NCBI GenBank assembly: GCA_963855995.1
Contig: OY979717.1
Location: 9,174,001 to 9,238,000, forward strand
Reading direction: 5' to 3'
DNA from: Muricea muricata
Lineage: Eukaryota > Cnidaria > Anthozoa > Malacalcyonacea > Plexauridae
Length of the DNA: 64,000 bases
Within the stretch, counting starts at the first letter, position 1, and each line of letters begins with the position of its first letter. A model generated the notes under the pieces. That model was not told where the DNA came from. It saw only the letters and a list, made by a program, of their open reading frames with translations, and did no database searches. Below are positions 36,833 through 61,008 of this stretch, in pieces. The translations under genes were made by a program, and so were the position numbers.

Positions 36833-38897
36833 TGCCAATCCATAGATATAGGAGACCTAGATTGCTGACTCGGCCCAGCAGGCGTGGCAATTTTTTAAAA
36901 TTCAAAATGGCGGCTCAACCGGGCAAAAATCATAGAGCGGTATAGGGAAAAACCATGTTTTTTGCATTTTACGTCGTCCTACGGCTTCCGATCCCGTTCC
37001 AACACATTATTTTGGAAAGAGCTAACCGGTGCGAAGGTTTTGAATGTATATTTGTTATAATTAGTACATTTTGCAATTTTTATTTTACATTTTTACAACT
37101 GGGCAAAGGTGGGTAAAGATCAAAAGCGTGCGAACCTGTCGGCCTGGTTTCATTTCCTGTGAATTTCTTCGGTCTTTTACGAGATTTTCCAACGTAACGA
37201 GATATATATCTAGTTATTCTAAGATCTAGTACTGTTTATTTTGTTCTTTCATCGTTTTTTTCGACCAAACTACAGTATTTTCATCTGAAATTTCTGCTGT
37301 GGCATTGCATTCCAAAAATATCTGAATATTTTCCAGTATATATTATGGATAATAAAATATCTATTGTTTTTTAACTACCCATGTATAAGCATGCCCAAAT
37401 ATTGTCCAGCATATACCCATGAACAATAAAACATCTATTGTTTTTCCTACTATCCATGGTATAACTGCAAGGTCCTTCCATAAGTATTAAGTCTATATAA
37501 TATTGTACATTTGTACACCATATATCCTTCATATAAAAAGAATAGTTTAAGACAATAAATCATATAAAAAGTATACTTTAAGACAATAAAATAATAAAGC
37601 TTTCGATAGCATAAAAACAACTTGTTTTGTAAATACTGTAATGACAACAAAATGTAGTTTTGAGTTTGTTGGCTACATATAATAGCATAATATAAAACTA
37701 TTTACAGCTTTAATTATGCAAAGAATGTTAGACCAAATAAGATCTTGTTTTGAACATCATGCGACAATTCTGTCAAAGACTTTTGTTCACATTAGTGAAC
37801 CAATATTACATCTTTCCCTTAAGTTTGCACTATTTTAACTTCTCATAAGCCATCCCAGCATGTAACAAATTGGATAACAGCAATGAAATGGGCAGACTGG
37901 ATGTCAACTAAATATTCAGTCTGGCATGCATGAGAAACACTTTATACCTAACAACTTCATTAATATTACAGGAGGGCAAGTAATAGACCAATTTGAAAAA
38001 GATGCCATCCCATCTATTTTTGATTATCCTTTCCACCTTGCTAAGACCATGAACACATTGATATTGTCTTGTCAGAGGTTTTACTCAAACTTTGTTTTGG
38101 CAAAGGAAATCCATCCCAGAGGCCAAAGCTGAATAGCTTTAATCTTTTTGGCAATTACTGACAAATCTATATGGCCTGGACTGTAAAAAATCAATCAGGT
38201 GTCTTGGGGAGGGAACTAAGATACTTTAACAATTTAATGCATAGCTATACTATACACAAATTAGTTAGTTACTTCAAATTAATCCATTGAAAACTTTTTC
38301 TGGCATTAGCTCTCACTAAAAACCTGATTGTTTCATCACTTTTCACAGTCTAGGCCATATGGACTTGAGATTCCGTGACACATCTGCAGCAGCAAGGTCA
38401 TAGTAAACAAAGCATCAGAGTTTTCAAACCAGCAGACTAGTAGACCAGATAAATCAAGCAAAATAGGTTGAAACTTCACAATATTATTCCCTGTTTTATG
38501 TTCCAAACGAGATCCTTAAGAAAAAAAGTACCCAAAGAACCCAAACCTTTATTTTCTGCAACAAATTGTCTCGAACATTTCGAACAGCTCAACCGACCAA
38601 ATGCTATGATCTTCAGAAAACGTTTCGCGATCGATTATTTCTACTTTAATGAACTTAAATTGTACAAATATACATTCAAAACCTTCGCATCGGTTAGCTC
38701 TTTCCAAAATAATGTGTTATGACGGGATCAGAAGCTGTAGGACGACGTAAAATGCAAAAAACATGGTTTTTCCCTATGCCACTCTATGATTTTTGCCCGG
38801 TTGAGCCGCCATTTTGAATGCTCATAGTTGCCACGCGCGTGCGTTATGAATTCTGCTACAGTCAGCAATCTAGGTCTCCTATATCTATGTGCCAATC
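36833..38897. mobile_element. 2.05-kb TIR element with 8-bp target duplication
   Basis: The element proper is 36841-38889 (2,049 bp). Both ends start CATAGATATAGGAGACCTAG, and the inverted repeats run about 220 bp (to about 37065, and from about 38670). Perfect direct repeats TGCCAATC flank it at 36833-36840 and 38890-38897. Inside are only short unrecognised frames (37926-38132 and 38468-38722) and a partial tandem duplication around 37334-37450 containing ATCTATTGTTTTT. It looks non-autonomous. Its right end is only about 50 bp from the giant element. Confidence 0.85.
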
Positions 38898-38954
38898 TCA
38901 CCAACTCACTAACCCTCGAGGCTCGAGCCCGCATTGTTTGTGTACAGTGCAGTG

Positions 38955-39079
38955 GGCATGTACTTTATCTTATGCGACTGGAATGGATCCGCGTTACAAT
39001 TCTATGACATATAGGCGCCAGTCCACATAGGTCAATAAACGATGTATTTATAAATACCATAACCAATATACACACTATA
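38955..39079. repeat. Left terminal unique segment of the giant element
   Basis: This 125-bp segment (terminal repeat, then GACTGGAATGGATCCGCG and downstream unique DNA ending ACCAATATACACAC) is repeated inverted at 56265-56389 with only a few differences. Confidence 0.8.
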
Positions 39080-42000
39080 GGTTCTATAGGTACTATTATT
39101 ATAGGTTTTATAGGTACTATAGGTTTTATAGGTACTATAGGTTTTATAGGTACTATAGGTACTATAGGTTTTATAGGTGCTATAGGTTTTATAGGTTTTA
39201 TAGGTTTTATAGGTGCTATAGGTTTTATAGGTACTATAGGTTTTATAGGTACTATAGGTTTTATAGGTACTATAGGTTTTATAGGTACTATAGGTTTTAT
39301 AGGTTCTATAGGTTTTATAGGTACTATAGGTTTTATAGGTTCTATAGGTTTTATAGGTACTATAGGTTTTATAGGTACTATAGGTTTTATAGGTGCTATA
39401 GGTTTTATAGGTGCTATAGGTTTTATAGGTACTATAGGTTTTATAGGTACTATAGGTTTTATAGGTACTATAGGTTTTATAGGTACTATAGGTTTTATAG
39501 GTTCTATAGGTTTTATAGGTACTATAGGTTTTATAGGTACTATAGGTTTTATAGGTGCTATAGGTTTTATAGGTACTATAGGTTTTATAGGTGCTACAGG
39601 TACTATAGGTTTTATAGGTACTATAGGTTTTATAGGTGCTATAGGTTTTATAGGTACTATAGGTTTTATAGGTACTATAGATTTTATAGGTACTATAGGT
39701 TTTATAGGTGCCATAGGTTTTATAGGTAGTATAGGTACTATAGGTGCTATAGCTTTTATAGGTGCTACAGGTACTATAGGTTTTATAGGTACTATAGGTA
39801 CTATAGGTACTATAGGTTTTATAGGTACTATAGGTACTATAGGTTTTATAGGTAGTATAGGTACTATAGGTACTATAGGTTTTATAGGTACTATAGGTAC
39901 TATAGGTACTATAGGTTTTATAGGTACTATAGGTACTATAGGTTTTATAGGTACTATAGGTACTATAGGTACTATAGGTTTTATAGGTACTATAGGTACT
40001 ATAGGTTTTATAGGTACTATAGGTACTATAGGTTTTATAGGTACTATAGGTTTTATAGGTACTATAGGTTTTATAGGTACTATAGGTTTTATAGGTACTA
40101 TAGGTTTTATAGGTGCTATAGGTTTTATAGGTGCTATAGGTTTTTAGGTGCTATAGGTTTTATAGGTGCTATAGGTTTTATAGGTACTATAGGTTTTATA
40201 GGTACTATAGGTACTATAGGTTTTATAGGTACTATAGGTTTTATAGGTACTATAGGTTTTATAGGTGCTATAGGTTTTATAGGTGCTATAGGTTTTATAG
40301 GTACTATAGGTTTTATAGGTACTATAGGTACTATAGGTTTTATAGGTACTGCTATAGGTTTTATAGGTACTATAGGTACTATAGGTTTTATAGGTACTAT
40401 AGGTTTTATAGGTACTATAGGTTTTATAGGTGCCATAGGTTTTATAGGTAGTATAGGTACTATAGGTGCTATAGGTTTTATAGGTGCTACAGGTACTATA
40501 GGTTTTATAGGTACTATAGGTACTATAGGTACTATAGGTTTTATAGGTACTATAGGTACTATAGGTTTTATAGGTAGTATAGGTACTATAGGTACTATAG
40601 GTTTTATAGGTACTATAGGTACTATAGGTACTATAGGTTTTATAGGTACTATAGGTACTATAGGTTTTATAGGTACTATAGGTACTATAGGTTTTATAGG
40701 TACTATAGGTACTATAGGTTTTATAGGTACTATAGGTACTATAGGTTTTATAGGTACTATAGGTTTTATAGGTACTATAGGTTTTATAGGTACTATAGGT
40801 TTTATAGGTACTATAGGTTTTATAGGTACTATAGGTTTTATAGGTACTATAGGTACTATAGGTTTTATAGGTGCTATAGGTTTTATAGGTTTTATAGGTG
40901 CTATAGGTTTTATAGGTACTATAGGTTTTATAGGTACTATAGGTTTTATAGGTACTATAGGTTTTATAGGTACTATAGGTTTTATAGGTTCTATAGGTTT
41001 TATAGGTACTATAGGTTTTATAGGTTCTATAGGTTTTATAGGTACTATAGGTTTTATAGGTACTATAGGTTTTATAGGTGCTATAGGTTTTATAGGTTTT
41101 ATAGGTGCTATAGGTTTTATAGGTACTATAGGTTTTATAGGTACTATAGGTTTTATAGGTACTATAGGTTTTATAGGTACTATAGGTTTTATAGGTTCTA
41201 TAGGTTTTATAGGTACTATAGGTTTTATAGGTACTATAGGTTTTATAGGTGCTATAGGTTTTATAGGTACTATAGGTACTATAGGTTTTATAGGTACTAT
41301 AGGTTTTATAGGTACTATAGGTTTTATAGGTGCTATAGGTTTTATAGGTACTATAGGTTTTATAGGTACTATAGATTTTATAGGTACTATAGGTTTTATA
41401 GGTGCCATAGGTTTTATAGGTAGTATAGGTACTATAGGTGCTATAGGTTTTATAGGTGCTACAGGTACTATAGGTTTTATAGGTACTATAGGTACTATAG
41501 GTACTATAGGTTTTATAGGTACTATAGGTACTATAGGTTTTATAGGTAGTATAGGTACTATAGGTACTATAGGTTTTATAGGTACTATAGGTACTATAGG
41601 TACTATAGGTTTTATAGGTACTATAGGTACTATAGGTTTTATAGGTACTATAGGTACTATAGGTTTTATAGGTACTATAGGTACTATAGGTTTTATAGGT
41701 ACTATAGGTACTATAGGTTTTATAGGTACTATAGGTTTTATAGGTACTATAGGTTTTATAGGTACTATAGGTTTTATAGGTACTATAGGTTTTATAGGTG
41801 CTATAGGTTTTATAGGTGCTATAGGTTTTTAGGTGCTATAGGTTTTATAGGTGCTATAGGTTTTATAGGTACTATAGGTTTTATAGGTACTATAGGTTTT
41901 ATAGGTACTATAGGTTTTATAGGTACTATAGGTTTTATAGGTGCTATAGGTTTTATAGGTGCTATAGGTTTTATAGGTACTATAGGTTTTATAGGTACTA

Positions 42001-45000
42001 TAGGTACTATAGGTTTTATAGGTACTGCTATAGGTTTTATAGGTACTATAGGTTTTATAGGTACTATAGGTTTTATAGGTACTATAGGTTTTATAGGTGC
42101 CATAGGTTTTATAGGTAGTATAGGTACTATAGGTGCTATAGGTTTTATAGGTGCTACAGGTACTATAGGTTTTATAGGTACTATAGGTACTATAGGTTTT
42201 ATAGGTACTATAGGTACTATAGGTTTTATAGGTAGTATAGGTACTATAGGTACTATAGGTTTTATAGGTTTTATAGGTACTATAGGTACTATAGGTACTA
42301 TAGGTTTTATAGGTACTATAGGTACTATAGGTTTTATAGGTACTATAGGTACTATAGGTTTTATAGGTACTATAGGTACTATAGGTTTTATAGGTACTAT
42401 AGGTACTATAGGTTTTATAGGTACTATAGGTTTTATAGGTACTATAGGTTTTATAGGTACTATAGGTTTTATAGGTACTATAGGTTTTATAGGTGCTATA
42501 GGTTTTATAGGTGCTATAGGTTTTATAGGTGCTATAGGTTTTATAGGTGCTATAGGTTTTATAGGTACTATAGGTTTTATAGGTACTATAGGTACTATAG
42601 GTTTTATAGGTACTATAGGTTTTATAGGTGCCATAGGTTTTATAGGTAGTATAGGTACTATAGGTGCTATAGGTTTTATAGGTGCTACAGGTACTATAGG
42701 TTTTATAGGTACTATAGGTACTATAGGTACTATAGGTTTTATAGGTACTATAGGTACTATAGGTTTTATAGGTAGTATAGGTACTATAGGTACTATAGGT
42801 TTTATAGGTACTATAGGTACTATAGGTTTTATAGGTACTATAGGTTTTATAGGTACTATAGGTACTATAGGTACTATAGGTTTTATAGGTACTATAGGTA
42901 CTATAGGTTTTATAGGTACTATAGGTACTATAGGTTTTATAGGTACTATAGGTTTTATAGGTACTATAGGTTTTATAGGTACTATAGGTTTTATAGGTAC
43001 TATAGGTTTTATAGGTGCTATAGGTTTTATAGGTGCTATAGGTTTTATAGGTGCTATAGGTTTTATAGGTGCTATAGGTTTTATAGGTACTATAGGTTTT
43101 ATAGGTACTATAGGTACTATAGGTTTTATAGGTACTATAGGTTTTATAGGTACTATAGGTTTTATAGGTGCTATAGGTTTTATAGGTGCTATAGGTTTTA
43201 TAGGTACTATAGGTTTTATAGGTACTATAGGTACTATAGGTTTTATAGGTACTATAGGTACTATAGGTTTTATAGGTACTATAGGTACTATAGGTTTTAT
43301 AGGTACTATAGGTACTATAGGTTTTATAGGTACTATAGGTTTTATAGGTACTATAGGTTTTATAGGTACTATAGGTTTTATAGGTACTATAGGTTTTATA
43401 GGTACTATAGGTTTTATAGGTACTATAGGTACTATAGGTTTTATAGGTGCTATAGGTTTTATAGGTTTTATAGGTGCTATAGGTTTTATAGGTACTATAG
43501 GTTTTATAGGTACTATAGGTTTTATAGGTACTATAGGTTTTATAGGTACTATAGGTTTTATAGGTTCTATAGGTTTTATAGGTACTATAGGTTTTATAGG
43601 TTCTATAGGTTTTATAGGTACTATAGGTTTTATAGGTACTATAGGTTTTATAGGTGCTATAGGTTTTATAGGTTTTATAGGTGCTATAGGTTTTATAGGT
43701 ACTATAGGTTTTATAGGTACTATAGGTTTTATAGGTACTATAGGTTTTATAGGTACTATAGGTTTTATAGGTTCTATAGGTTTTATAGGTACTATAGGTT
43801 TTATAGGTACTATAGGTTTTATAGGTGCTATAGGTTTTATAGGTACTATAGGTACTATAGGTTTTATAGGTACTATAGGTTTTATAGGTACTATAGGTTT
43901 TATAGGTGCTATAGGTTTTATAGGTACTATAGGTTTTATAGGTACTATAGATTTTATAGGTACTATAGGTTTTATAGGTGCCATAGGTTTTATAGGTAGT
44001 ATAGGTACTATAGGTGCTATAGGTTTTATAGGTGCTACAGGTACTATAGGTTTTATAGGTACTATAGGTACTATAGGTACTATAGGTTTTATAGGTACTA
44101 TAGGTACTATAGGTTTTATAGGTAGTATAGGTACTATAGGTACTATAGGTTTTATAGGTACTATAGGTACTATAGGTACTATAGGTTTTATAGGTACTAT
44201 AGGTACTATAGGTTTTATAGGTACTATAGGTACTATAGGTTTTATAGGTACTATAGGTACTATAGGTTTTATAGGTACTATAGGTACTATAGGTTTTATA
44301 GGTACTATAGGTTTTATAGGTACTATAGGTTTTATAGGTACTATAGGTTTTATAGGTACTATAGGTTTTATAGGTGCTATAGGTTTTATAGGTGCTATAG
44401 GTTTTTAGGTGCTACAGGTTTTATAGGTGCTATAGGTTTTATAGGTACTATAGGTTTTATAGGTACTATAGGTTTTATAGGTACTATAGGTTTTATAGGT
44501 ACTATAGGTTTTATAGGTGCTATAGGTTTTATAGGTGCTATAGGTTTTATAGGTACTATAGGTTTTATAGGTACTATAGGTACTATAGGTTTTATAGGTA
44601 CTGCTATAGGTTTTATAGGTACTATAGGTTTTATAGGTACTATAGGTTTTATAGGTACTATAGGTTTTATAGGTGCCATAGGTTTTATAGGTAGTATAGG
44701 TACTATAGGTGCTATAGGTTTTATAGGTGCTACAGGTACTATAGGTTTTATAGGTACTATAGGTACTATAGGTACTATAGGTTTTATAGGTACTATAGGT
44801 ACTATAGGTTTTATAGGTAGTATAGGTACTATAGGTACTATAGGTTTTATAGGTTTTATAGGTACTATAGGTACTATAGGTACTATAGGTTTTATAGGTA
44901 CTATAGGTACTATAGGTTTTATAGGTACTATAGGTACTATAGGTTTTATAGGTACTATAGGTACTATAGGTTTTATAGGTACTATAGGTACTATAGGTTT

Positions 45001-47151
45001 TATAGGTACTATAGGTTTTATAGGTACTATAGGTTTTATAGGTACTATAGGTTTTATAGGTACTATAGGTTTTATAGGTGCTATAGGTTTTATAGGTGCT
45101 ATAGGTTTTATAGGTGCTATAGGTTTTATAGGTGCTATAGGTTTTATAGGTACTATAGGTTTTATAGGTACTATAGGTACTATAGGTTTTATAGGTACTA
45201 TAGGTTTTATAGGTGCCATAGGTTTTATAGGTAGTATAGGTACTATAGGTGCTATAGGTTTTATAGGTGCTACAGGTACTATAGGTTTTATAGGTACTAT
45301 AGGTACTATAGGTACTATAGGTTTTATAGGTACTATAGGTACTATAGGTTTTATAGGTAGTATAGGTACTATAGGTACTATAGGTTTTATAGGTACTATA
45401 GGTACTATAGGTTTTATAGGTACTATAGGTTTTATAGGTACTATAGGTACTATAGGTACTATAGGTTTTATAGGTACTATAGGTACTATAGGTTTTATAG
45501 GTACTATAGGTACTATAGGTTTTATAGGTACTATAGGTTTTATAGGTACTATAGGTTTTATAGGTACTATAGGTTTTATAGGTACTATAGGTTTTATAGG
45601 TGCTATAGGTTTTATAGGTGCTATAGGTTTTATAGGTGCTATAGGTTTTATAGGTGCTATAGGTTTTATAGGTACTATAGGTTTTATAGGTACTATAGGT
45701 ACTATAGGTTTTATAGGTACTATAGGTTTTATAGGTACTATAGGTTTTATAGGTGCTATAGGTTTTATAGGTGCTATAGGTTTTATAGGTACTATAGGTT
45801 TTATAGGTACTATAGGTACTATAGGTTTTATAGGTACTGCTATAGGTTTTATAGGTACTATAGGTACTATAGGTTTTATAGGTACTATAGGTTTTATAGG
45901 TACTATAGGTTTTATAGGTGCCATAGGTTTTATAGGTAGTATAGGTACTATAGGTGCTATAGGTTTTATAGGTGCTACAGGTACTATAGGTTTTATAGGT
46001 ACTATAGGTACTATAGGTACTATAGGTACTATAGGTTTTATAGGTACTATAGGTACTATAGGTTTTATAGGTAGTATAGGTACTATAGGTACTATAGGTT
46101 TTATAGGTACTATAGGTACTATAGGTACTATAGGTTTTATAGGTACTATAGGTACTATAGGTTTTATAGGTACTATAGGTACTATAGGTACTATAGGTTT
46201 TATAGGTACTATAGGTACTATAGGTTTTATAGGTACTATAGGTACTATAGGTTTTATAGGTACTATAGGTTTTATAGGTACTATAGGTTTTATAGGTACT
46301 ATAGGTTTTATAGGTACTATAGGTTTTATAGGTGCTATAGGTTTTATAGGTGCTATAGGTTTTTTAGGTGCTATAGGTTTTATAGGTGCTATAGGTTTTA
46401 TAGGTACTATAGGTTTTATAGGTACTATAGGTACTATAGGTTTTATAGGTACTATAGGTTTTATAGGTACTATAGGTTTTATAGGTGCTATAGGTTTTAT
46501 AGGTGCTATAGGTTTTATAGGTACTATAGGTTTTATAGGTACTATAGGTACTATAGGTTTTATAGGTACTGCTATAGGTTTTATAGGTACTATAGGTTTT
46601 ATAGGTACTATAGGTGCTATAGGTTTTATAGGTACTATAGGTACTATAGGTTTTATAGGTACTATAGGTACTATAGGTTTTATAGGTACTATAGGTACTA
46701 TAGGTTTTATAGGTACTATAGGTACTATAGGTTTTATAGGTACTATAGGTGCTATAGGTTTTATAGGTACTATAGGTGCTATAGGTTTTATAGGTACTAT
46801 AGGTACTATAGGTTTTATAGGTACTATAGGTACTATAGGTTTTATAGGTACTATAGGTACTATAGGTTTTATAGGTACTATAGGTTTTATAGGTACTATG
46901 GGTTTTATAGGTACTATAGGTACTATAGGTTTTATAGGTACTATGGGTTTTATAGGTACTATAGGTACTATAGGTTTTATAGGTACTATAGGTTTTATAG
47001 GTACTATAGGTTTTTTAGGTACTATAGGTACTATAGGTTTTATAGGTACTATAGGTTTTATAGGTACTATAGGTTTTATAGGTACTATAGGTCTTATAGG
47101 TGCTATAGGTTTTATTGGTACTCTAGGTACTATTGGAACAATAGGTTTTAT
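39080..47151. repeat. Left 9-bp satellite array, about 8.1 kb
   Basis: Roughly 900 uninterrupted 9-bp units of the form GGTNNTATA: mainly GGTTTTATA, GGTACTATA and GGTGCTATA, with minor GGTTCTATA, GGTAGTATA, GGTGCTACA and GGTGCCATA. The minor forms show higher-order structure: GGTGCCATA, followed by GGTTTTATAGGTAGTATA, occurs nine times (about 39708, 40429, 41401, 42096, 42628, 43978, 44672, 45212 and 45918). An 8-bp unit GGTTTTTA recurs at about 40139, 41822 and 44399, and a 12-bp unit GGTACTGCTATA five times. Because 9 is a multiple of 3, two of three frames on each strand stay open; those frames are a by-product. Confidence 0.95.
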
Positions 47152-47340
47152 AGCCAATATATTTGCTAAGTAGGTTAAGGTATTTGTTAAATAGGTTATT
47201 CCCCACTGATCAATACGCATACAGTCAACCTAGATCAATTAGTCTGCCTCGTTCCCAGAAAAGGCCCTGGGGGCGAGGATGGTATACAATCAATTTATGG
47301 TAATAAGTCAGGTAATAAGTTGTATAGCTTGCTATAAACA
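47152..47340. other. Left unique spacer between array and internal terminal repeat
   Basis: About 190 bp of non-repetitive DNA, mirrored at 51627-51816 with a handful of substitutions. It contains the imperfect hairpin CCTCGTTCCCAG...CCTGGGGGCGAGG at 47247-47278, related to the palindrome at 14767-14816. Confidence 0.7.
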
Positions 47341-47383
47341 GGGTATGTACTTCATCTTATAGGACTGGAATGGATCCGTGTGA
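47341..47383 (+). repeat. Internal copy of the giant element's terminal repeat (left)
   Basis: GGTATGTACTTCATCTTATA followed by GGACTGGAATGGATCCGTG closely matches the outer terminus at 38955 (same orientation). The mirrored internal copy is at 51587-51626. Four copies of this motif therefore exist in the element. Confidence 0.85.
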
Positions 47384-47433
47384 CCAGTGCTAATATATAC
47401 AGTAGTGATATCTGTTTAGTAGTTATTGCCGTT

Positions 47434-47757
47434 ATGGCGTCATTCCTGTTATTGGTGTTATTGCCGTTACTGGTGTTAATGGCGTTATTGGCGTTATTGC
47501 TGTTATTGGCGTTGTTGCCGTTATTGGTGTTGTTAGTGTTGTTGCCGTTATTGCTGTTATTGGTGTTATTGCCGTTATTAGTGTTATTAGTGTTATTGCT
47601 GTTATTGCCGTTATTGCTGTTATTGCCGTTCTTGGTGTTATTAGAGTTATTGCCGTTCTCGCTGTTATTGGCGTTATTGCTGTTATTGGTGTTATTGCCG
47701 TTATTAGCGTTATTGCTGTTATTGGTGTTATTGCCGTTATTAGCGTTATTGCTGTTC
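47434..47757. repeat. Left TTATTGCCG-type minisatellite (9-bp register)
   Basis: Tandem 9-bp units TTATTGCCG, TTATTGGTG, TTATTGCTG and TTATTGGCG, about 324 bp. The mirrored array is 51248-51537. Its open frame (poly-Leu/Val) is a by-product of the 9-bp register and is not called as a gene. Confidence 0.85.
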
Positions 47758-47918
47758 GAAATTTTCCGTGTTTACATCGAGTTATATCAACACGGCTCTT
47801 AGCCAATCAGTGTTCAGGATTTACAAATGCTATATTATAAAATTGTACAACGGGCTTGTAAATAAAATTGTATTGAGTCGAATTGCTCATTTGTTTTTAC
47901 TGTACGACGGGCTTCAAG

Positions 47919-48098
47919 ATGCTTCACTACATGTTTGTGCTGTCACAACTAATTACTCTTACTAAGGGAGTGTATATTGATGAAAAGGCCGAGAATATCC
48001 TGCATCAATTGCTCGCAGAATATGAAAAGAATCCTGCTGATGGTAAATACGATAACATCATATTAACTTCGAAAAGTTTTTATTTGGTGCCCGATTAG
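47919..48098 (+). pseudogene. N-terminal piece of the left transposase gene, out of frame
   Basis: An open frame from ATG 47919 ends KSFYLVPD then TAG. The next frame, read from upstream of ATG 48118, continues ISHFTLPLMCPIHNVQLVCK. Placed together, LPD followed by a hydrophobic stretch and LVCKEW resembles an F-box. The TAG and frame change occur at the same place in the right arm (stop at 50916-50918), so the break predates the present arms, or it is a short intron or a programmed frameshift. The F-box reading is inference from a short motif. Confidence 0.45.
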
Positions 48099-48117
48099 TC
48101 ATTTTACACTACCATTA

Positions 48118-50004
48118 ATGTGTCCCATCCATAATGTGCAACTAGTTTGTAAAGAATGGCAATCCGTGCTTTCTAAAGAAAATTATTTAAATCCACGTAT
48201 GGTATATGATACTGGTGGAAATGTTGTATTCATTCAGAGATATTACGAATGTGCTTCGTCTGGAAGTTCAACGTGGCTGAAACACACCTTTCTTTCAGCA
48301 TCAAAATCCATTATGGATGCTATTCCACGAAATTTGGCAAATAAGCTCCCAATTATTTTACATTACAAAAGTGCATTGACACATGACCTGCTTGATAATC
48401 TCTGGACAAGCATTGAAATAGGACAAAATTTTGTTAAAATTACCGAGCGCTTGGCATCGTTAAACTACCGCAATTTTCAGCGAAGAAAGTTAATTCTTGG
48501 AGAGCATACTAGTAATGCAGCTGACCTACAGTCGTTTTATGGAAATGTCTTATATTCTTTTCTTAGTAACGATAAACTGATGCACATATTCCTATGCCAT
48601 TATGAAGAAACTAAACACATTTTTCATGCTGAAATGCAGAAGTTGACTGGCACCGTAATGTCATTTGACCACACTTTTAAAGTCAGCAAGCATATCGGAA
48701 TTGTAAGAAATGACAATTCTTTTGTTAAACAATTTGATGGATGTTTTTTCGGGATGAATGGATATGGCGAGGTGGTTGCATGGCGTTTGACAAAGACAAC
48801 GGGTTTTAAGGAAATAGAAGACTTATTGTTTGACTTAAAAGAACGAATGCTAAACAGCGGCATTAATTTGGAAGTTATAATTCTCGACGACTGTTGTAAA
48901 ATGCGCAATAGCTATCAAAACGTTTTCGGCGGTAACGTAAAAATTAAACTTGATCTTTTTCACGCGTGTCAACGCGTTATACAAACATTAGATCATGATG
49001 GAATAAAAAATCAATTTTCAAGAGAGTTCGGTTTGATATTTAGAGTGGATGGTGACGTTGGCGAAGAAAGAGAAATGACCACACCAGAACCTGAAGTAAT
49101 AATTGCAAATCTTGAGCAACTCCTTTGTCGTTGGCAAGGTCAACTCAATGCAAAAACGCTGAAATCGGTTGATGACCTTAGAAGGCACATAAATAAAGGA
49201 TGCTTGTCAGGAATTTTGCCGGGGGAGGGAACAGAAAAAAATGAGCGTTTACACCGACATTTGCGAAAGTCGCTGTTGGTTGGAGCTAATACAATTTCCC
49301 CTGAACTAGCTATTGCATGCCTCACATTAGCATTATACGTATGGAATAACAGGAAAAAAAGTGTCAAACACATAAAAAATCAGAGAGTTGTACCTATTAT
49401 TCCAGCTGAATATTCAGAAGATATTTCTAATAACTGCGCTTCTTCAACAGCCCTGCCGTTCAAAGTGAACAATGACGCGTCCAAAGAAATTCCACCACCT
49501 TTTGCAGATAAAACCAAGGAAAGACTTGCCATGGGACCAACTGAACAAGATGCTGATCAGTGTGGTAACACCTTTCTGCACGTTACTGTTCTTGATGACT
49601 TGCTTAACAGCTCAACTGTGATGTATATCATCGAAAGAACTTTGCAACTGTACGAGACTGTTCAAAAGATAAACAATCAATGTGCAATACGTAGCTTGAA
49701 TCTCCTTGACTTTCCCTTATTATCAGGTTTTAAAGAGCACGCCTCTCTAATACGATGCTCTGACTACGACAATATAAATAATTTAGATGTAGACAAATTT
49801 GCATCAGTTGAGGAGGGCAAAAACAAAGAAACCCTAAAAAGAAACTTAAACTCTTTCAATTTGGATGTGGATACTGTGATCGGAGATGGTAATTGCTGTT
49901 TTCACAGTATTGCGCTCCAGCTGCACAAGTTATTTCCATTCTCAACAGAAGAGCTCTGCGATACTGATGACTCCGCGTATATATATATATATGTATACGT
50001 ATAA
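48118..50004 (+). CDS. DDE-type transposase with truncated C-terminal OTU domain
   Basis: 628-residue frame. Candidate catalytic residues of an RNase H-like transposase: Asp184 in SFDHTFK, Asp257 or Asp258 in IILDDCCKMR, followed by KLDLFHACQRV, which resembles the D...H signature of MULE-like enzymes, and Glu377 in GTEKNERLHRHL. Residues 586-612 (TVIGDGNCCFHSIALQL) match the catalytic Asp/Cys block of OTU cysteine proteases, with Cys593 the likely nucleophile. The OTU domain stops after about 40 residues, where the frame runs into a TA microsatellite (49977-49996), so its catalytic His is absent. Residues 1-294 are duplicated inverted in the right arm. Probably the element's own mobility protein, now truncated. 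No introns needed. The transposase call rests on motifs alone. Confidence 0.75.
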   Translation: MCPIHNVQLVCKEWQSVLSKENYLNPRMVYDTGGNVVFIQRYYECASSGSSTWLKHTFLSASKSIMDAIPRNLANKLPIILHYKSALTHDLLDNLWTSIEIGQNFVKITERLASLNYRNFQRRKLILGEHTSNAADLQSFYGNVLYSFLSNDKLMHIFLCHYEETKHIFHAEMQKLTGTVMSFDHTFKVSKHIGIVRNDNSFVKQFDGCFFGMNGYGEVVAWRLTKTTGFKEIEDLLFDLKERMLNSGINLEVIILDDCCKMRNSYQNVFGGNVKIKLDLFHACQRVIQTLDHDGIKNQFSREFGLIFRVDGDVGEEREMTTPEPEVIIANLEQLLCRWQGQLNAKTLKSVDDLRRHINKGCLSGILPGEGTEKNERLHRHLRKSLLVGANTISPELAIACLTLALYVWNNRKKSVKHIKNQRVVPIIPAEYSEDISNNCASSTALPFKVNNDASKEIPPPFADKTKERLAMGPTEQDADQCGNTFLHVTVLDDLLNSSTVMYIIERTLQLYETVQKINNQCAIRSLNLLDFPLLSGFKEHASLIRCSDYDNINNLDVDKFASVEEGKNKETLKRNLNSFNLDVDTVIGDGNCCFHSIALQLHKLFPFSTEELCDTDDSAYIYIYVYV

Positions 50005-50017
50005 GCATCCAAATTGA
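48997..50017. other. Single-copy centre of the giant palindrome
   Basis: This 1,021-bp segment has no inverted partner. It holds the second half of the transposase frame and the start of the OTU domain. TTCAATTTGGATG at 49855-49867 reappears inverted at 50006-50018, exactly where the right arm begins, so the right arm joins to this 13-bp block. Next to it is an AT microsatellite with GTATACGTATA. This looks like a deletion or template-switch junction. Confidence 0.75.
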
Positions 50018-50896
50018 ATGATCTAATGTTTGTATAACGCGTTGACACGCGTGAAAAAGATCAAGTTTAATTTTTACGTTACCGCCGAAAACGTTTTGAT
50101 AGCTATTGCGCATTTTACAACAGTCGTCGAGAATTATAACTTCCAAATTAATGCCGCTGTTTAGCATTCGTTCTTTTAAGTCAAACAATAAGTCTTCTAT
50201 TTCCTTAAAACCCGTTGTCTTTGTCAAACGCCATGCAACCACCTCGCCATATCCATTCATCCCGAAAAAACATCCATCAAATTGTTTAACAAAAGAATTG
50301 TCATTTCTTACAATTCCGATATGCTTGCTGACTTTAAAAGTGTGGTCAAATGACATTACGGTGCCAGTCAACTTCTGCATTTCAGCATGAAAAATGTGTT
50401 TAGTTTCTTCATAATGGCATAGGAATATGTGCATCAGTTTATCGTTACTAGGAAAAGAATATAAGACATTTCCATAAAACGACTGTAGGTCAGCTGCATT
50501 ACTAGTATGCTCTCCAAGAATTAACTTTCTTCGCTGAAAATTGCGGTAGTTTAACGATGCCAAGCGCTCGGTAATTTTAACAAAATTTTGTCCTATTTCA
50601 ATGCTTGTCCAGAGATTATCAAGCAGGTCATGTGTCAATGCACTTTTGTAATGTAAAATAATTGGGAGCTTATTTGCCAAATTTCGTGGAATAGCATCCA
50701 TAATGGATTTTGATGCTGAAAGAAAGGTGTGTTTCAGCCACGTTGAACTTCCAGACGAAGCACATTCGTAATATCTCTGAATGAATACAACATTTCCACC
50801 AGTATCATATACCATACGTGGATTTAAATAATTTTCTTTAGAAAGCACGGATTGCCATTCTTTACAAACTAGTTGCACATTATGGATGGGACACAT
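50018..50896 (-). pseudogene. Right-arm copy of the transposase, 5' part only
   Basis: From ATG at 50896 it matches residues 1-293 of the left copy almost exactly; one difference, Leu149 to Pro, is visible in the translations. Asp184 and Asp257/258 are kept, but the frame leaves the transposase sequence after QTLDH and runs into unrelated codons to 49856, so Glu377 and the OTU domain are lost. It cannot be a functional transposase. Confidence 0.8.
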
Positions 50897-50915
50897 TAAT
50901 GGTAGTGTAAAATGA

Positions 50916-51095
50916 CTAATCGGGCAGCAAATAAAAACTTTTCGAAGTTAATATGATGTTATCGTATTTACCATCAGCAGGATTCTTTTCATATTCTGCG
51001 AGCAATTGATGCAGGATATTCTCGGCTTTTTCATCAATATACACTCCCTTAGTAAGAGTAATTAGTTGTGACAGCACAAGCATGTAGTGAAGCAT
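50916..51095 (-). pseudogene. Right-arm copy of the transposase N-terminal piece
   Basis: Mirror of 47919-48098, ending KSFYLLPD then a stop, with the same frame change before the ATG at 50896. It reads LLPD where the left copy reads LVPD. It supports a shared, older frame break or an unrecognised splice or frameshift. Confidence 0.5.
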
Positions 51096-51247
51096 CTTGA
51101 AGCCCGTCGTACAGTAAAAACAAATGAGCAATTCGACTCAATACAATTTTATTTACAAGCCCGTTGTACAATTTTATAATATAGCATTTGTAAATCCTGA
51201 ACACTGATTGGCTAAGAGCCGTGTTGATATAACTCGATGTAAACACG

Positions 51248-51537
51248 GAAAATTTCGAACAGCAATAACGCTAATAACGGCAATAACACCAATAACAGCA
51301 ATAACGCCAATAACAGCGAGAACGGCAATAACTCTAATAACACCAAGAACGGCAATAACAGCAATAACGGCAATAACAGCAATAACACTAATAACGGCAA
51401 TAACAGCAATAACGGCAACAACACTAACAACACTAACAACACCAATAACGGCAACAACGCCAATAACAGCAATAACGCCAATAACGCCATTAACACCAGT
51501 AACGGCAATAACACCAATAACAGGAATGACGCCATAA
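51248..51537. repeat. Right TTATTGCCG-type minisatellite (inverted)
   Basis: Reverse-complement partner of 47434-47757, reading CGGCAATAA and variants on the plus strand. It is about 35 bp shorter and has a different unit order. Confidence 0.85.
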
Positions 51538-51586
51538 CGGCAATAACTACTAAACAGATATCACTACTGTATATATTAGCACTGGT

Positions 51587-51626
51587 CACACGGATCCATT
51601 CCAGTCCCATAAGATGAGGTACATAC
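51587..51626 (-). repeat. Internal copy of the terminal repeat (right)
   Basis: Read on the minus strand: GTATGTACCTCATCTTATGG followed by GACTGGAATGGATCCGTG. It mirrors 47341-47383 and matches the outer terminus at 56389. Confidence 0.85.
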
Positions 51627-51816
51627 ACTGTTTATAGCAAGGTATACAACTTATTACCTGACTTATTACCATAAATTGATTGTATACCATCCTCGCCCCC
51701 AGGGCCTTTTCTGGGAACGAGGCAGACTAATTGATCTAGGTTGACTGTATGCGTATTGATCAGTGGGGAATAACCTATTTAACAAATACCTTAACCTATT
51801 TAGCTAATATATTGGC
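51627..51816. other. Right unique spacer between internal terminal repeat and array
   Basis: Mirror of 47152-47340, including the CTCGCCCCCAGGG...CCCAGAACGAGG-like hairpin at about 51692-51723. No coding sequence. Confidence 0.7.
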
Positions 51817-54800
51817 TATAAAACCTATTGTTCCAATAGTACCAAGAGTACCAATAAAACCTATAGCACCTATAAGACCTATACTACCTGTAAAACCTAT
51901 AGTACCTATAAAACCTATAGTACCTATAAAACCTATAGTACCTATAAAACCTATAGTACCTATAAAACCTATAGTACCTATAAAACCTATAGTACCTATA
52001 AAACCTACAGTACCTATAGTACCTATAAAACCTATAGTACCTATAAAACCTATAGTACCTATAAAACCTATAGTACCTAAAAAACCTACAGTACCTATAA
52101 AACCTATAGTACGTATAAAACCTACAGTACCTATAGTACCTATAAAACCTAGAGTACCTATAAAACCTATAGTACCTATAAAACCTATAGTACTTATAAA
52201 ACCTATAGTACCTATAAAACCTATAGTACTTATAAAACCTATAGTACCTATAAAACCTATAGTACCTATAAAACCTATAATACCTATAGTACCTATAAAA
52301 CCTATAAAACCTATAGTACCTATAAAACCTATAGTACCTATAAAACCTATAGTACCTATAAAACCTATAGTACCTATAAAACCTATAGTACCTATAGTAC
52401 CTATAAAACCTATAGTACATATAGAACCTACAGTACCTATAGAACCTATAAAACCTATAGTACCTATAAAACCTACAGTACCTATAAAACCTATAGTACC
52501 TGTAGCACCTATAAAACCTATAGCACCTATAAAACCTATAGTACCTATACTACCTATAAAACCTATAGCACCTATAAAACCTATAGTACCTATGAAACCT
52601 ATAGTACCTATAAAACCTATAGTACCTATAAAACCTATAGTACCTATAAAACCTATAGTACCTATAGTACCTATAAAACCTATAGTACCTATAAAACCTA
52701 TAGTACCTATAGTACCTATAAAACCTATAGTACCTATAGTACCTATAGTACCTATAGTACCTATAGTACCTATAGTACCTATAAAACCTATAGTACCTAT
52801 AGAACCTATAGTACCTATAGAACCTATAAAACCTATAGTACCTATAAAACCTATAGTACCTGTAGCACCTATAAAACCTATAGCACCTATAGTACCTATA
52901 CTACCTATAAAACCTATAGCACCTATAAAACCTATAGTACCTATAAAACCTATAGTACCTATAAAACCTATAGTACCTATAAAACCTATAGTACCTATAA
53001 AACCTATAGTACCTATAGTACCTATAAAACCTATACTACCTATAAAACCTATAGCACCTATAGTACCTATACTACCTATAAAACCTATACTACCTATAAA
53101 ACCTATAGCACCTATAGTACCTATACTACCTATAAAACCTATAGCACCTATAAAACCTATAGTACCTATAAAACCTATAGTACCTATAAAACCTATAGTA
53201 CCTATAAAACCTATAGTACCTGTAGCACCTATAAAACCTATACTACCTATAAAACCTATAGCACCTATAGTACCTATACTACCTATAAAACCTATAGCAC
53301 CTATAAAACCTACAGTACCTATAAAACCTATAGTACCTATAAAACCTATAGTACCTATAAAACCTATAGTACCTATAAAACCTATAGTACCTGTAGCACC
53401 TATAAAACCTATACTACCTATAAAACCTATAGCACCTATAAAACCTATAGTACCTATAAAACCTATAGTACCTATAAAACCTATAGTACCTTATAAAACC
53501 TGTAGTACCTATAGTACCTATAAAACCTATAGTACCTATAAAACCTATAGTACCTATAAAACCTATAGTACCTATAGTACCTATAAAACCTATAGTACCT
53601 ATAAAACCTATAGTACCTATAAAACCTATAGTACCTATAAAACCTATAGCACCTATAAAACCTATAGCACCTATAAAACCTATAGTACCTATAAAACCTA
53701 TAGTACCTATAAAACCTATAGTACCTATAAAACCTATAGTACCTTATAAAACCTGTAGTACCTATAGTACCTATAAAACCTATAGCACCTATAAAACCTA
53801 TAGCACCTATAAAACCTATAGCACCTATAAAACCTATAGTACCTATAAAACCTATAATACCTATAAAACCTATAGCACCTATAAAACCTATAGTACCTAT
53901 AGTACCTAAAAAACCTTTAAAACCTATAGAACCTATAAAACCTATAGTACCTATAGTACCTATAAAACCTATAGTACCTATAGTACCTATAGTACCTATA
54001 GTACCTATAGTACCTATAGTACCTATAAAACCTATAGTACCTATAGAACCTATAGTACCTATAAAACCTATAAAACCTATAGTACCTATAAAACCTATAG
54101 TACCTGTAGCACCTATAAAACCTATAGCACCTATAGTACCTATACTACCTATAAAACCTATAGCACCTATAAAACCTATAGTACCTATAAAACCTATAGT
54201 ACCTATAAAACCTATAGTACCTATAAAACCTATAGTACCTATAAAACCTATAGTACCTATAGTACCTATAAAACCTATACTACCTATAAAACCTATAGCA
54301 CCTATAGTACCTATACTACCTATAAAACCTATACTACCTATAAAACCTATAGCACCTATAGTACCTATACTACCTATAAAACCTATAGCACCTATAAAAC
54401 CTATAGTACCTATAAAACCTATAGTACCTATAAAACCTATAGTACCTATAAAACCTATAGTACCTGTAGCACCTATAAAACCTATACTACCTATAAAACC
54501 TATAGCACCTATAGTACCTATACTACCTATAAAACCTATAGCACCTATAAAACCTACAGTACCTATAAAACCAATAGTACCTATAAAACCTATAGTACCT
54601 ATAAAACCTATAGTACCTATAAAACCTATAGTACCTGTAGCACCTATAAAACCTATACTACCTATAAAACCTATAGCACCTATAAAACCTATAGTACCTA
54701 TAAAACCTATAGTACCTATAAAACCTATAGTACCTTATAAAACCTGTAGTACCTATAGTACCTATAAAACCTATAGTACCTATAAAACCTATAGTACCTA

Positions 54801-56264
54801 TAAAACCTATAGTACCTATAGTACCTATAAAACCTATAGTACCTATAAAACCTATAGTACCTATAAAACCTATAGTACCTATAGTACCTATAAAACCTAT
54901 AGCACCTATAAAACCTATAGCACCTATAAAACCTATAGTACCTATAAAACCTATAGTACCTATAAAACCTATAGTACTTATAAAACCTATAGTACCTTAT
55001 AAAACCTGTAGTACCTATAGTACCTATAAAACCTATAGCACCTATAAAACCTATAGCACCTATAAAACCTATAGCACCTATAAAACCTATAGTACCTATA
55101 AAACCTATAATACCTATAAAACCTATAGCACCTATAAAACCTATAGTACCTATAGTACCTAAAAAACCTTTAAAACCTATAGAACCTATAAAACCTATAG
55201 TACCTATAAAACCTATAGTACCTATAAAACCTATAGTACCTATAGTACCTATAAAACCTATAGCACCTATAAAACCTATAGCACCTATAAAACCTATAGC
55301 ACCTATAAAACCTATAATACCTATAAAACCTATAGCACCTATAAAACCTATAGTACCTATAGTATCTAAAAAACCTTTAAAACCTATAGAACCTATAAAA
55401 CCTATAGTACCTATAAAACCTATAGTACCTATAAAACCTATAGTACCTATAGTACCTATAAAACCTATAGCACCTATAAAACCTATAGCACCTATAAAAC
55501 CTATAGCACCTATAAAACCTATAGTACCTATAAAACCTATAGTACCTATAAAACCTATAGCACCTATAAAACCTATAATACCTATAAAACCTATAGCACC
55601 TATAAAACCTATAGTACCTATAGTACCTAAAAAACCTTTAAAACCTATAGAACCTATAAAACCTATAGTACCTATAAAACCTATAGTACCTTATAAAACC
55701 TGTAGTACCTATAGTACCTATAAAACCTATAGTACCTACAAAACCTATAGTACCTATAGTACCTATAAAACCTATAGCACCTATAAAACCTATAGCACCT
55801 ATAAAACCTATAGCACCTATAAAACCTATAGTACCTATAAAACCTATAGTACCTATAAAACCTATAGTACCTATAAAACCTATAGTACCTATAAAACCTA
55901 TAGCACCTATAAAACCTATAGTACCTATAAAACCTATAGTACCTATAAAACCTATAGTACCTATAAAACCTATAGTACCTATAAAACCTATAGTACCTGT
56001 AGCACCTATAAAACCTATACTACCTATAAAACCTATAGCACCTATAAAACCTATAGTACCTATAGTACCTATAAAACCTATAGTACCTATAAAACCTATA
56101 GTACCTATCAAACCTATAATACCTATAGAACCTATAAAACCTATAGTACCTATAAAACCTATAGCACCTATAAAACCTATAGTACCTATAGTACCTATAA
56201 AACCTATAGTATCTATAAAACCTATAGTACCTATAAAACCTATAATAATAGTACCTATGGAACC
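51817..56264. repeat. Right 9-bp satellite array, about 4.4 kb (inverted)
   Basis: Roughly 490 units reading TATAAAACC, TATAGTACC and TATAGCACC on the plus strand. It shares GTACCTGTAGCACC and CACCTATAGTACCTATACTA blocks with the left array but lacks the GGTGCCATA marker. It has its own markers: a 10-bp unit ACCTTATAAA before ACCTGTAGTACC at five places (about 53490, 53741, 54732, 54993 and 55690), and CCTAAAAAACCTTTAAAACC at four places (about 53906, 55159, 55366 and 55627). The two arrays have therefore been reshuffled separately. Confidence 0.95.
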
Positions 56265-56389
56265 TATAGTGTGTATATTGGTTATGGTATTTATAGATAC
56301 ATCGTTTATTGACCTATGTGGACTGGCGCCTATATGTCATGGAATTGTAACGCGGATCCATTCCAGTCGCATAAGATAAAGTACATACC
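56265..56389. repeat. Right terminal unique segment of the giant element
   Basis: Inverted partner of 38955-39079, ending in CATAAGATAAAGTACATACC at 56389 before the GTGCAGTG duplication. Confidence 0.8.
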
Positions 56390-56561
56390 GTGCAGTGCAT
56401 GTGCGCTGAAATCCTGAAATCTCTGAAATCGTAGCGGATAATCTTGTGGAAAGAAAATGAAAATGTAGTCATAAAAACTTGTAAATTTTGTTAGAGTCCA
56501 CTTGCTTTTACCGCAGTTACATTTAACAAGTCGTTCGCGAAGTTCGTGGTAGAAAAACGAA

Positions 56562-59500: not shown

Positions 59501-61008
59501 ACTATGATGTAACCCAGGGTTTCAATTAAAAAAGATTTAGAAATCTTTGTATCTGGGAGTTTCCCTTTGTTATAAACAGAACCGATGTACAGAACGTACT
59601 ATATACCGTCATTAATGAGAGTGTGAATATCGGAGAATGCGATATTAGGTTTATCAACTAAACTACTTTGCCTAGTTGCACCGCGTTTCACGTTGTATCT
59701 CAAATATAAGCACTAGGGTCTCAAACAAGCATATCAATATTTATTTCCGTACCTTGTCGTACATTGTAATGCTGTTCACTCAATTGCATATAGATTTCTC
59801 TTAATTTGTAATTACATCCTTTTCAAGGTATCGAAGTTGTTACAGTTCATCCTATAGTACATAAAGTTTTTCGTCAAGTATTTGTGAATGTCACAATCCC
59901 GTTACTGGAACAGCAACACTTGGTCCTTGCTGAGAGAAAGCATCAACATAAATCATATTTTGGTCGTTTGCGACGCTTTCATCCCCAATCATCGATTACA
60001 GAATATCGCAGAGACTTAGGGGATGTAGCATCATTGAGAGATGTCGATGAGAAAAATTTGGTTTCAGAGAAATTAAAGTCTTGTGTTAATGTTGTTCTTG
60101 CTGGTACAGATGCGAACGTGGCTGGTGTTCAAACTCAGAACCCGCAGCATACCATTGCTCATTTGCAAGAACATTTGAGTCGTGTGGTGAATTCTCTCAG
60201 CAACCACTATAATATTGCTGGTGGCGATAGCAATGTTCTGGTTGCTAGGACTATGTTGCTACCTCATCTTGAAGCATTGCTCCAAGAAAGATGTTTAACA
60301 GCTGCAAGTAAAGCACAACTGTATCGCACAATGTCAAACATTCATTCTGAAGTGTTTGGTGATCATGCTACCGCTATGCGACTTTTGAACATGGCTTATG
60401 CAGTGACCAAGGAACGTTATGGCGAAGAGAGTCTGGAGATAGCAGGAATAATAACTGAACAAGCTGAACTATGTAGCACAAGAGAGAAACTTGATCAAAG
60501 TAAAATATTATTAGAACGTGCAATAGAGATCTACCAGAAAAACATCAAAATTTCTCAATCCAACAAGCAACCATTTCAGTATGGCAAAGCCCTCGTTGCT
60601 TTGGGTGTAACGTGTGGTAGCCTTGGTGAAGCCAGTCGCTCTAAAGATCTGTTGGAGAAAGGCTTAATGGAGTTACAAAATGCAGCTCCCGACAACCCTC
60701 ATGCTAAAGAGAGCAAATGGTTTGCTGCTGAAATCAGTACTGCAGTCACAAATCTTGGTCATGCTTATCTCTCGTTGGGTCAAATCAGTCAGGGCCAGAA
60801 ATTGTTAGAACTGGCCTTGATTGGTCATCAGAATATACATGGTGATGCACATGATGAAGTTATTCGCACTCTCACTACATTGAGTATTGCTCATGCTATG
60901 CAAGGGAACAGTCAGGAGAGCAAGAGATTGAGAAATGAAGCTGGCAAAATTAGGAAGAAGTTAGACAAGAAAGCACCACTGTTTTTACATTCGTCAAGTT
61001 TTTCTTGA
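56562..61008 (+). CDS. STAND-like P-loop NTPase with TPR repeats, probable mitochondrial membrane protein
   Basis: Three exons join in frame: 56562-57325, 58617-59314 and 59828-61008 (stop TGA 61006-61008), giving 880 residues. Residues 1-30 are Arg/Ser-rich without acidic residues, like a mitochondrial presequence. Residues 47-66 form one hydrophobic segment. A Walker A motif GPPGSGKT is at 113-120, and a Walker B-like strand CWILVVEN at about 205-212 lacks the usual second acidic residue. The third exon has TPR-like helical pairs, for example ALVALGVTCGSLGEASRSKD and AVTNLGHAYLSLGQISQGQK. P-loop plus TPR is the layout of STAND-class signalling NTPases (nephrocystin-3-like or NB-ARC/TPR types). 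I do not recognise a named orthologue. An AATAAA follows at about 61049. The start codon is 164 bp from the giant element's target site. Confidence 0.85.

Follow-up and report, generated by a model that had tools for sequence, protein, structure and literature searches.

The 64,000-nucleotide stretch of Muricea muricata DNA analyzed here (the window; contig OY979717.1 of GenBank assembly GCA_963855995.1) contains a unit of 17,435 bp (38955 to 56389) that is bracketed by two copies of GTGCAGTG and is very probably a non-autonomous, palindromic cut-and-paste DNA transposon of foldback type. A sequence-only reading of the window had proposed one inserted transposon with satellite-filled inverted arms. 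The matching inverted termini, the perfect 8-bp duplication GTGCAGTG (38947 to 38954 and 56390 to 56397), and the roughly 12.5 kb of satellite in the two arms (8,080 plus 4,427 bp by Tandem Repeats Finder [TRF], with an 18-bp unit made of two 9-mers) were all recovered, and the satellite was found in opposite orientation in the two arms. Across the host genome, units with the same outer (A-type) termini sit between 8-bp target duplications, and descendants of one palindromic founder stand at 21 places, with a median gene difference of 0.48% between elements. The family, a giant form of the long-known foldback elements, has been moving recently.

Copies in the host genome and their common founder

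The host assembly (453 Mb in 74 contigs) was searched for exact A-type ends with a 30-bp sequence, and the listings of A-type ends and of the B-type ends described below were complete. Forty-six exact A-type ends were found, comprising 4 single ends and 21 forward-reverse pairs with facing ends 7.2 to 35.0 kb apart; the other copies with the same termini that the sequence-only reading had proposed to look for are these facing pairs. Flanks were read at 19 of the 21 pairs (all except C13:8.80M and C16:2.30M). Perfect 8-bp duplications, all different, were present in 17 of the 19, and the duplication of the pair at C3:9.17M contained one mismatch, as did that of a C-type element (C2:3.65M). Of the 15 A ends read, 14 had satellite units over 82 to 91% of their inner 1.5 kb, and coverage at the remaining end was 20%. 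Family copies with satellite inside their termini are thus found at different sites, which bears out the earlier suggestion that a transposon moves satellite DNA.

A 25-mer across the central junction of the window element (49993 to 50017) was found at 21 loci genome-wide (20 exact and 1 with two mismatches). It was present once in 20 of the 21 A pairs (C2:51.4M being without it) and once at C9:10.78M, a locus with a single exact A end, and in the genome-wide search it was in neither of the two composite elements described below. At this junction the transposase gene runs to nucleotide 1860 and is followed by AT-rich filler (about 28 bp in the window) and then by its own reverse complement from nucleotide 1750. 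Walks along the full-length gene reached the founder junction in four of nine copies, the other five ending earlier at changes or at the anchor. When compared with the two composites, 24 of 25 A-type gene starts shared a gap of 23 bases, with C3:55.3M as the exception (27 starts were tried, and two, at C14:5.85M, were excluded for anchor mismatch).

A common junction at 21 loci excludes independently formed chimeras and indicates that one palindrome was amplified as a unit. The ancestor of the paired copies was a single palindrome in which half of an element, consisting of A terminus, satellite, spacer, B terminus, minisatellite, and transposase gene, had been fused within that gene, via the AT-rich filler, to an inverted copy of itself. 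Together with the target duplications, the junction agrees with the earlier claim of one inserted unit, a DNA transposon.

Organization of the window element

The element begins with GGCATGTACTTTATCTTATGCGACTGG at 38955, and the inverted partner of this sequence terminates at 56389. A pattern for the 37-bp terminus (three or fewer mismatches) matched four times in the window, versus no match in 100 shuffles, and the four matches were the two outer ends and an inner pair. The parts of the element are as follows.

38947 to 38954, no strand: left target-site duplication, GTGCAGTG
38955 to 38991, plus strand: outer (A-type) left terminus
38992 to 39073, plus strand: left subterminal stretch, roughly 90% similar to D-type element ends, which have no A-type terminus
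39074 to 47153, plus strand: left satellite array, 18-bp unit ACTATAGGTTTTATAGGT, 8,080 bp (TRF)
47154 to 47341, plus strand: left spacer, common to two D-type loci (L104 and L105)
47342 to 47378, plus strand: inner (B-type) terminus, left
47422 to 47756, plus strand: second 9-bp minisatellite, GTTATTGCT-type, left (TRF)
48118 to 50004, plus strand: transposase open reading frame (ORF), 628 amino acids (aa), with a weak DUF6729-like start, a DDE core (D184/D257/E376), and an OTU domain cut at codon 620
49978 to 50005, no strand: AT-rich filler, center of the palindrome
50006 to 50896, minus strand: mirror-image transposase gene, internally deleted and retaining codons 1 to 294
51263 to 51547, minus strand: second 9-bp minisatellite, right (TRF)
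51591 to 51627, minus strand: inner (B-type) terminus, right
51628 to 51817, minus strand: right spacer, inverted partner of the left
51818 to 56244, minus strand: right satellite array, inverted ACTATAGGTTTTATAGGT unit, 4,427 bp (TRF), lacking colinearity with the left array
56245 to 56352, minus strand: right subterminal stretch, inverted partner of the left
56353 to 56389, minus strand: outer (A-type) right terminus
56390 to 56397, no strand: right target-site duplication, GTGCAGTG

The sequence-only reading had missed the inner pair of termini with its own 9-bp minisatellite, as well as the inverted duplication of the transposase gene that forms the center. The left 1,518 bp of this center (47479 to 48996) recur inverted at 50018 to 51535 with 96% complementarity.

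Transposase

A protein search of the genome with the window frame gave at least 76 matches (70 of 170 candidates scored), many of them as facing pairs. The transposase frame of the composites (832 aa) matched OTU above and DUF6729 just below the Pfam cutoff, and a relative at C2:54.83M (L064; 818 aa; 41 to 42% identical) matched both. With this relative as the query (55 of 192 candidates scored), both composites (C3:44.7M and C14:7.29M) were matched without a stop, and theirs were the sole stop-free full-length A-type transposase frames among the scored matches; all 33 scored A-type matches starting at query residue 59 or earlier contained at least one stop. The mirrored gene copies, carrying such stops, look non-autonomous. 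A transposase gene does lie at the center of the element, as the sequence-only reading had stated; what that reading did not anticipate is a gene that is mirrored, cut short in its OTU domain, and interrupted in every one of these matches reaching the N terminus. Transposase would act in trans from full-length copies, either the two composites or the frame-bearing B-type elements, and the 36-bp termini would be what it recognizes.

Frames of further relatives were also compared to Pfam. L110, from a B-type pair, gave otubain-, CXC-, and OTU-like matches, all below the cutoff, L111 matched OTU above the cutoff, and L112 had no Pfam match. D184 (in DHTFK), D257, D279xxH282, and E376 were invariant in all six aligned proteins, and D279xxH282 fits the [C/D]xxH motif that follows the second D of the DDE triad in Mutator and Mutator-like elements (MULEs). 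The 8-bp duplications of the A pairs fit the Mutator/MULE range of 8 to 11 bp, a length that is not specific to MULEs and is found in other superfamilies too. The MULE domain PF10551 was not matched by Pfam in the window protein, L007, L064, or L110 to L112, and none of the 103 matches to PF10551 in the genome (150 of 269 candidates scored) was at an A- or B-type transposase site. IS256 was matched weakly by L064 alone (E = 3e-4; 19.8 bits versus a cutoff of 150) and not by the other four proteins scanned. When three frames of the host genome that carry a MULE domain were used for an HH profile comparison, the best E value was 0.012, for one pair, and the other two scored no better than shuffled or reversed controls.

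No Pfam match to a THAP or P-element domain, a PHD finger, or the KDZ transposase domain of Zisupton/KDZ was found in six proteins, and the OTU and CXC-like domains are no more than a resemblance to Zisupton/KDZ. A PDB sequence search returned nothing significant (best E values, 0.21, for an OTU protein, and 0.029), and the AlphaFold single-sequence model of the transposase had a predicted local distance difference test (pLDDT) value of 31, too low to be usable for recognizing the RNase-H-like fold of DDE transposases. Transposase relatives were confirmed neither in viral contigs, searched with a single protein and an alignment as queries, nor in prokaryote genomes. Judged by its sequence, the transposase appears MULE-like in motif and duplication length and is not filed as a MULE here; the profile libraries searched recognized this transposase group only in its OTU domain.

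Turnover and possible function of the satellite arrays

TATAGGT or its complement occurs 860 times in the left array, 441 times in the right array, and once in the rest of the window. Satellite is present in both inverted arms, as had been claimed from the sequence alone; the symmetry claimed with it is absent, the arrays being unequal in length, with 0.1% of right-array 150-mers present in the left array, and differing from those of a sister copy. Arm lengths, measured as distances from terminus to inner terminus, ranged from 0.67 to 26.4 kb with a left-right correlation of 0.02 (19 of the 21 pairs measurable), and core length in the same number of pairs had a median of 5.07 kb, with two long cores (C3:57.8M and C10).

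The closest sister of the window element is the copy at C4:12.49M, and both have an arm truncated at codon 294. With the genes aligned, matching 100-mers made up 70.5%/42.8% between the right array of the window element and the left array of the sister and 32.2%/39.5% between the left array of the window element and the right array of the sister, versus 5.6 to 8.6% between same-side arrays (8.6%/6.8% for the right array of the window element). Over the outer 555 aligned arm positions, 2 + 2 differences were counted crosswise and 10 + 10 on the same side, and the inner arm positions had 3 to 5 differences without this contrast. The crosswise matching of arrays and outer arms indicates that one of the two elements has its core flipped with respect to the arms, an outcome expected of recombination between inverted arms. 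The arm stretches of the window element measure 8.1 kb (left) and 4.6 kb (right), their crosswise sister partners measure 2.0 and 6.0 kb, and one block of a window array is present five times in the sister, once partially. The arrays turn over fast, the length of one arm varies independently of that of the other, and the sister arrays differ in length partly through repetition of a block.

Recombination between arms and unequal exchange would drive the flips, the homogenization, and the growth of the arrays, and the palindrome itself may have arisen by end-to-end fusion or by template switching in a broken element. Each transposition would in this way start another pair of satellite arrays in a fresh location. 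The origin and spread of satellites are an open question that is often approached by inference from old remnants. The copies suggest a cut-and-paste unit that carries multi-kilobase inverted arrays, and with about 20 closely related sisters that have the same junction and arms of different length, growth, shrinkage, exchange, and flipping should be measurable in one genome.

The array units differ by element type (TATAGGT-type in A, GTTTGTAGTGTTGTTGGC in B, CGTTGTTGGTGTTTCTAG in C, and GTTATTGCT-type in inner B), yet all of these arrays lie inside a terminus and repeat with a period of 9, 18, or another multiple of 9 (for L058, the best score was at 99). One tentative explanation is that the 9-bp arrays are functional cargo, a loading platform of many weak transposase-binding sites in which the period of 9 is selected and the sequence is replaced. 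Secondary transposase-binding sites in terminal inverted repeats (TIRs) have been reported for Galileo (PMC4079207 and PMC3573991), which is consistent with such a platform. However, the roughly 40-fold variation in arm length, down to the shortest arm of 0.67 kb, and the differences between the arrays of two sister copies argue against it, slippage and unequal exchange would suffice without function, and the tandem array on one side of the C2:54.83M relative has another period (100 to 110 bp). A wider proposal is equally doubtful, namely, that an undescribed DDE-OTU transposase group would mobilize a satellite-armed superfamily (A, B, C, and D types), with the period-9 arrays as its working part (a loading or synapsis platform), whose period would persist through repeated replacement of the repeat sequence, and with the elements as a standing generator of satellites at new genomic sites.

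B-type elements and composites

Outside the A elements, B-type ends (TTCATCTTATGGG) formed 12 pairs with ends 12 to 60 kb apart, two of which were composites. Perfect 8-bp duplications were present in all three of the ten simple B-type pairs that were read at both ends. The composite at C3:44708677-44744578 (C3:44.7M) is 36 kb long with the 8-bp duplication CTATGGGT, and that at C14:7270928-7314198 (C14:7.29M) is 43 kb long with the 9-bp duplication CACTTGTCC. The C3 composite is a B-type element that encloses one half element, made up of A end, satellite, inner B end, and full-length gene. The distance from its A end to the right B end is about 17 kb, and the stretches sampled in this interval (out of 11 short stretches of the 36-kb copy) were non-satellite until the far end; gene capture is a possible source of this cargo. 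By eye, a frame in one of these stretches (L092) looks like an exon and another on the other side of the gene (L086) looks like a long interspersed nuclear element (LINE) endonuclease frame.

Six of the 12 B-type pairs contained their own transposase frames (C1:34.4M, C2:59.9M, C4:8.9M, C6:14.0M, C3:55.8M, and C3:17.98M). These pairs span 23 to 60 kb, with open frames of 771 to 1012 aa that are 31 to 41% identical to L064 over the matched stretches (L110 is the one read), and they are a larger family of giant transposons in the same genome. Because B-type ends bound independent elements with duplications, composites included, and because six pairs hold a transposase frame, the inner B-type ends could be taken for the working ends of the A elements, with a nested B element mobilizing an A shell whose ends are passengers. 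This is improbable, since in the four A elements whose inner ends were read, mirror-image spacer rather than a duplication adjoins the inner B ends, and the target duplications belong to the A ends.

Points against the transposon interpretation, and D-type loci

A number of points weigh against the interpretation of the window element as one non-autonomous cut-and-paste transposon. The flanks of the copy at C4:12.49M differ at four of eight positions although it is the closest sister of the window element. Two joined-flank searches for empty sites (40 of 160 and 40 of 752 candidates scored) gave no match spanning the junction, and the best junction-crossing match in the C2:43147819 search, at C5:3.2M, extended only 7 bases past it. 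The empty sites with a single GTGCAGTG that the sequence-only reading had suggested seeking were thus absent from the scored candidates, which leaves the target duplication as the sole evidence of insertion. Gene divergence was 0 to 0.40% within elements (10 pairs) and had a median of 0.48% (range, 0 to 1.12%) between elements (30 gene segments and 417 codons, composites included), so that the two ranges overlap, and at C3:9.17M and C2:7.78M the partner within the element was not the single nearest sequence. Arms were fully read only in the window element and C4:12.49M. A shorter product of the 628-aa frame could be active, and excision, transposase activity, and trans-mobilization are predictions.

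The last of these points concerns the satellite itself, which is also present, in opposite orientations, at three loci (C1:39.3M, 60.5M, and 65.07M), two of them the D-type loci L104 and L105. No A or B terminus was present in the DNA read at these loci, the nearest having 16 mismatches of 36. L104 contains an inverted arm pair that starts with GGGTTACAATTC and is about 90% like the A subterminal stretch, together with the A spacer; L105 contains the A spacer and is incomplete on one side; and the third locus was read for 0.8 kb at each end. Independence of termini and satellite arrays, which the sequence-only reading had named as evidence against a single element, is thereby seen in part. With the same satellite at D-type loci, the single element may be a mosaic, with separate histories for its outermost 36 bp, its satellite arms, and its inner B ends. 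The likely order of events is that D-type arms acquired a B-like end, that a B-type unit carrying the gene came to sit inside, and that the half element was then duplicated as a mirror image, with the break inside the gene, and this palindrome multiplied.

The same three loci, and the 3,670 exact, overlapping 35-mer matches genome-wide, would also be expected if the satellite had spread alone or by segmental duplication and a transposon had inserted into existing arrays. This alternative is improbable, as no satellite unit was found in the 1.5 kb outside any of the 13 A ends counted, and the three loci themselves carry satellite in opposite orientation, with an end of its own (GGGTTACAATTC) on the arm pair of L104. 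That the inverted duplication is an assembly or library artifact is very unlikely: long arrays are hard to assemble and palindromes are a known class of artifact, but the same central junction is found at 21 loci, in elements that differ in flanks, lengths, and target duplications. The transposon interpretation is preferred to each of these alternatives.

Surroundings of the insertions

The window element lies about 170 bp upstream of an ORF with AAA/STAND-type NTPase matches (the best just below the cutoff), which is followed by a TPR frame (window positions 56562 to 61005), and the insertion may affect the promoter of this NTPase-like frame. On the left, a dispersed repeat makes up roughly the initial 85 bases of the flank query (38805 to 38890) and is 92 to 100% identical at 38 other scored sites. 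A promoter preference via a YY1-like motif near the window insertion was rejected, as the motif lies within the dispersed repeat. A separate short tandem array with periods of 13, 25, and 60 bp lies outside the element at 22322 to 22605.

In flanks of A, B, and C elements, the CpG observed/expected ratio was 0.99 in the nearest 300 bp and 0.66 farther out (0.78 in the rest of the window). In 18 of 24 flanks, the closest 500 bp had a higher ratio than the more distant DNA, the two flanks of an element not being independent. A preference for insertion into unmethylated DNA is possible and is hinted at here. The B-type element at C2:43147819 was inserted at the margin of a dispersed repeat (752 candidate sites, 40 scored), and its scored left-flank matches end 2 or fewer bases from the insertion, save for the overlapping ones at C5:3.2M; this position could reflect target choice or chance.

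Comparison with known elements

The family has the features of the foldback class, with long inverted arms of short tandem repeats and repeat numbers that differ between arms and copies, and the foldback target site duplication (TSD) range of 7 to 10 bp fits the 8 bp of the 17 A pairs and the 9 bp of the C14 composite. FB and FB-NOF elements of Drosophila melanogaster have long inverted arms of short tandem repeats, with NOF central in some FB copies, and the TU elements of sea urchins have long inverted arms with 15-bp repeats and 8-bp duplications; both are much smaller than the family described here.

Tm1, a Mutator/foldback element of root-knot nematodes, has inverted arms consisting mostly of a 13- to 15-bp tandem repeat, with repeat numbers that vary between ends and copies, a 9-bp TSD, and one type that encodes a transposase (PMC3169594). 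The window family is like Tm1 in its short-repeat inverted arms, unequal repeat numbers, and target duplications and differs from it in the 9/18-bp repeat, kilobase arms, mirrored gene, OTU domain, 8-bp TSD, and absence of a MULE match. Tetris, a foldback element of Drosophila virilis, has repeats of about 220 bp, TIRs of up to 1,735 bp, 8- to 10-bp TSDs, and no apparent coding capacity; the tandem repeats of its TIRs also form satellite arrays, and a link to Mutator has been proposed (PMC4079207). Tandem repeats inside TIRs, the link to satellite, and TSD length are common to Tetris and the window family. For Galileo (Drosophila; P superfamily), arm growth has been described by expansion of tandem repeats, recruitment of part of the transposase gene, and uptake of another transposon that is then included in both arms, and the longest reported copy, in D. 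willistoni, is 9.0 kb with TIRs of 4.2 and 4.7 kb and repeats of about 140 to 210 bp (PMC4168063 and PMC3573991). The anatomy of the window family fits all three of these routes, whereas its proteins have no THAP or P-type match.

The Rehavkus group is MULE-related, with an internal minisatellite, a 9-bp TSD, a PHD finger, and TIRs of 26 to 400 bp (PMC6446971); the window family is like it in the internal minisatellite and the target duplication and is set apart by having no PHD match in its proteins. Teratorn, a giant fusion of a herpesvirus and piggyBac, has an additional set of terminal repeats in its interior, where its long inverted repeats are bounded (PMC6431247), and is like the window element in these internal termini and unrelated in content. 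The titles and opening abstract lines of the literature searched showed no transposon whose arms are comparable in size and kind, but this was literature in which subscription papers were mostly not covered, so that absence is not proven.

The sequence-only reading knew of no described element with such an architecture, a claim that is not supported, given the published foldback elements that have tandem-repeat arms, some with a transposase gene. Because FB, Tm1, Galileo, and Tetris already have tandem repeats in their inverted arms, the window family varies an established type of element in a new way. It belongs to the foldback class and is unusual within it in its size, in its single palindromic founder, and in its DDE-OTU transposase without a Pfam MULE match.

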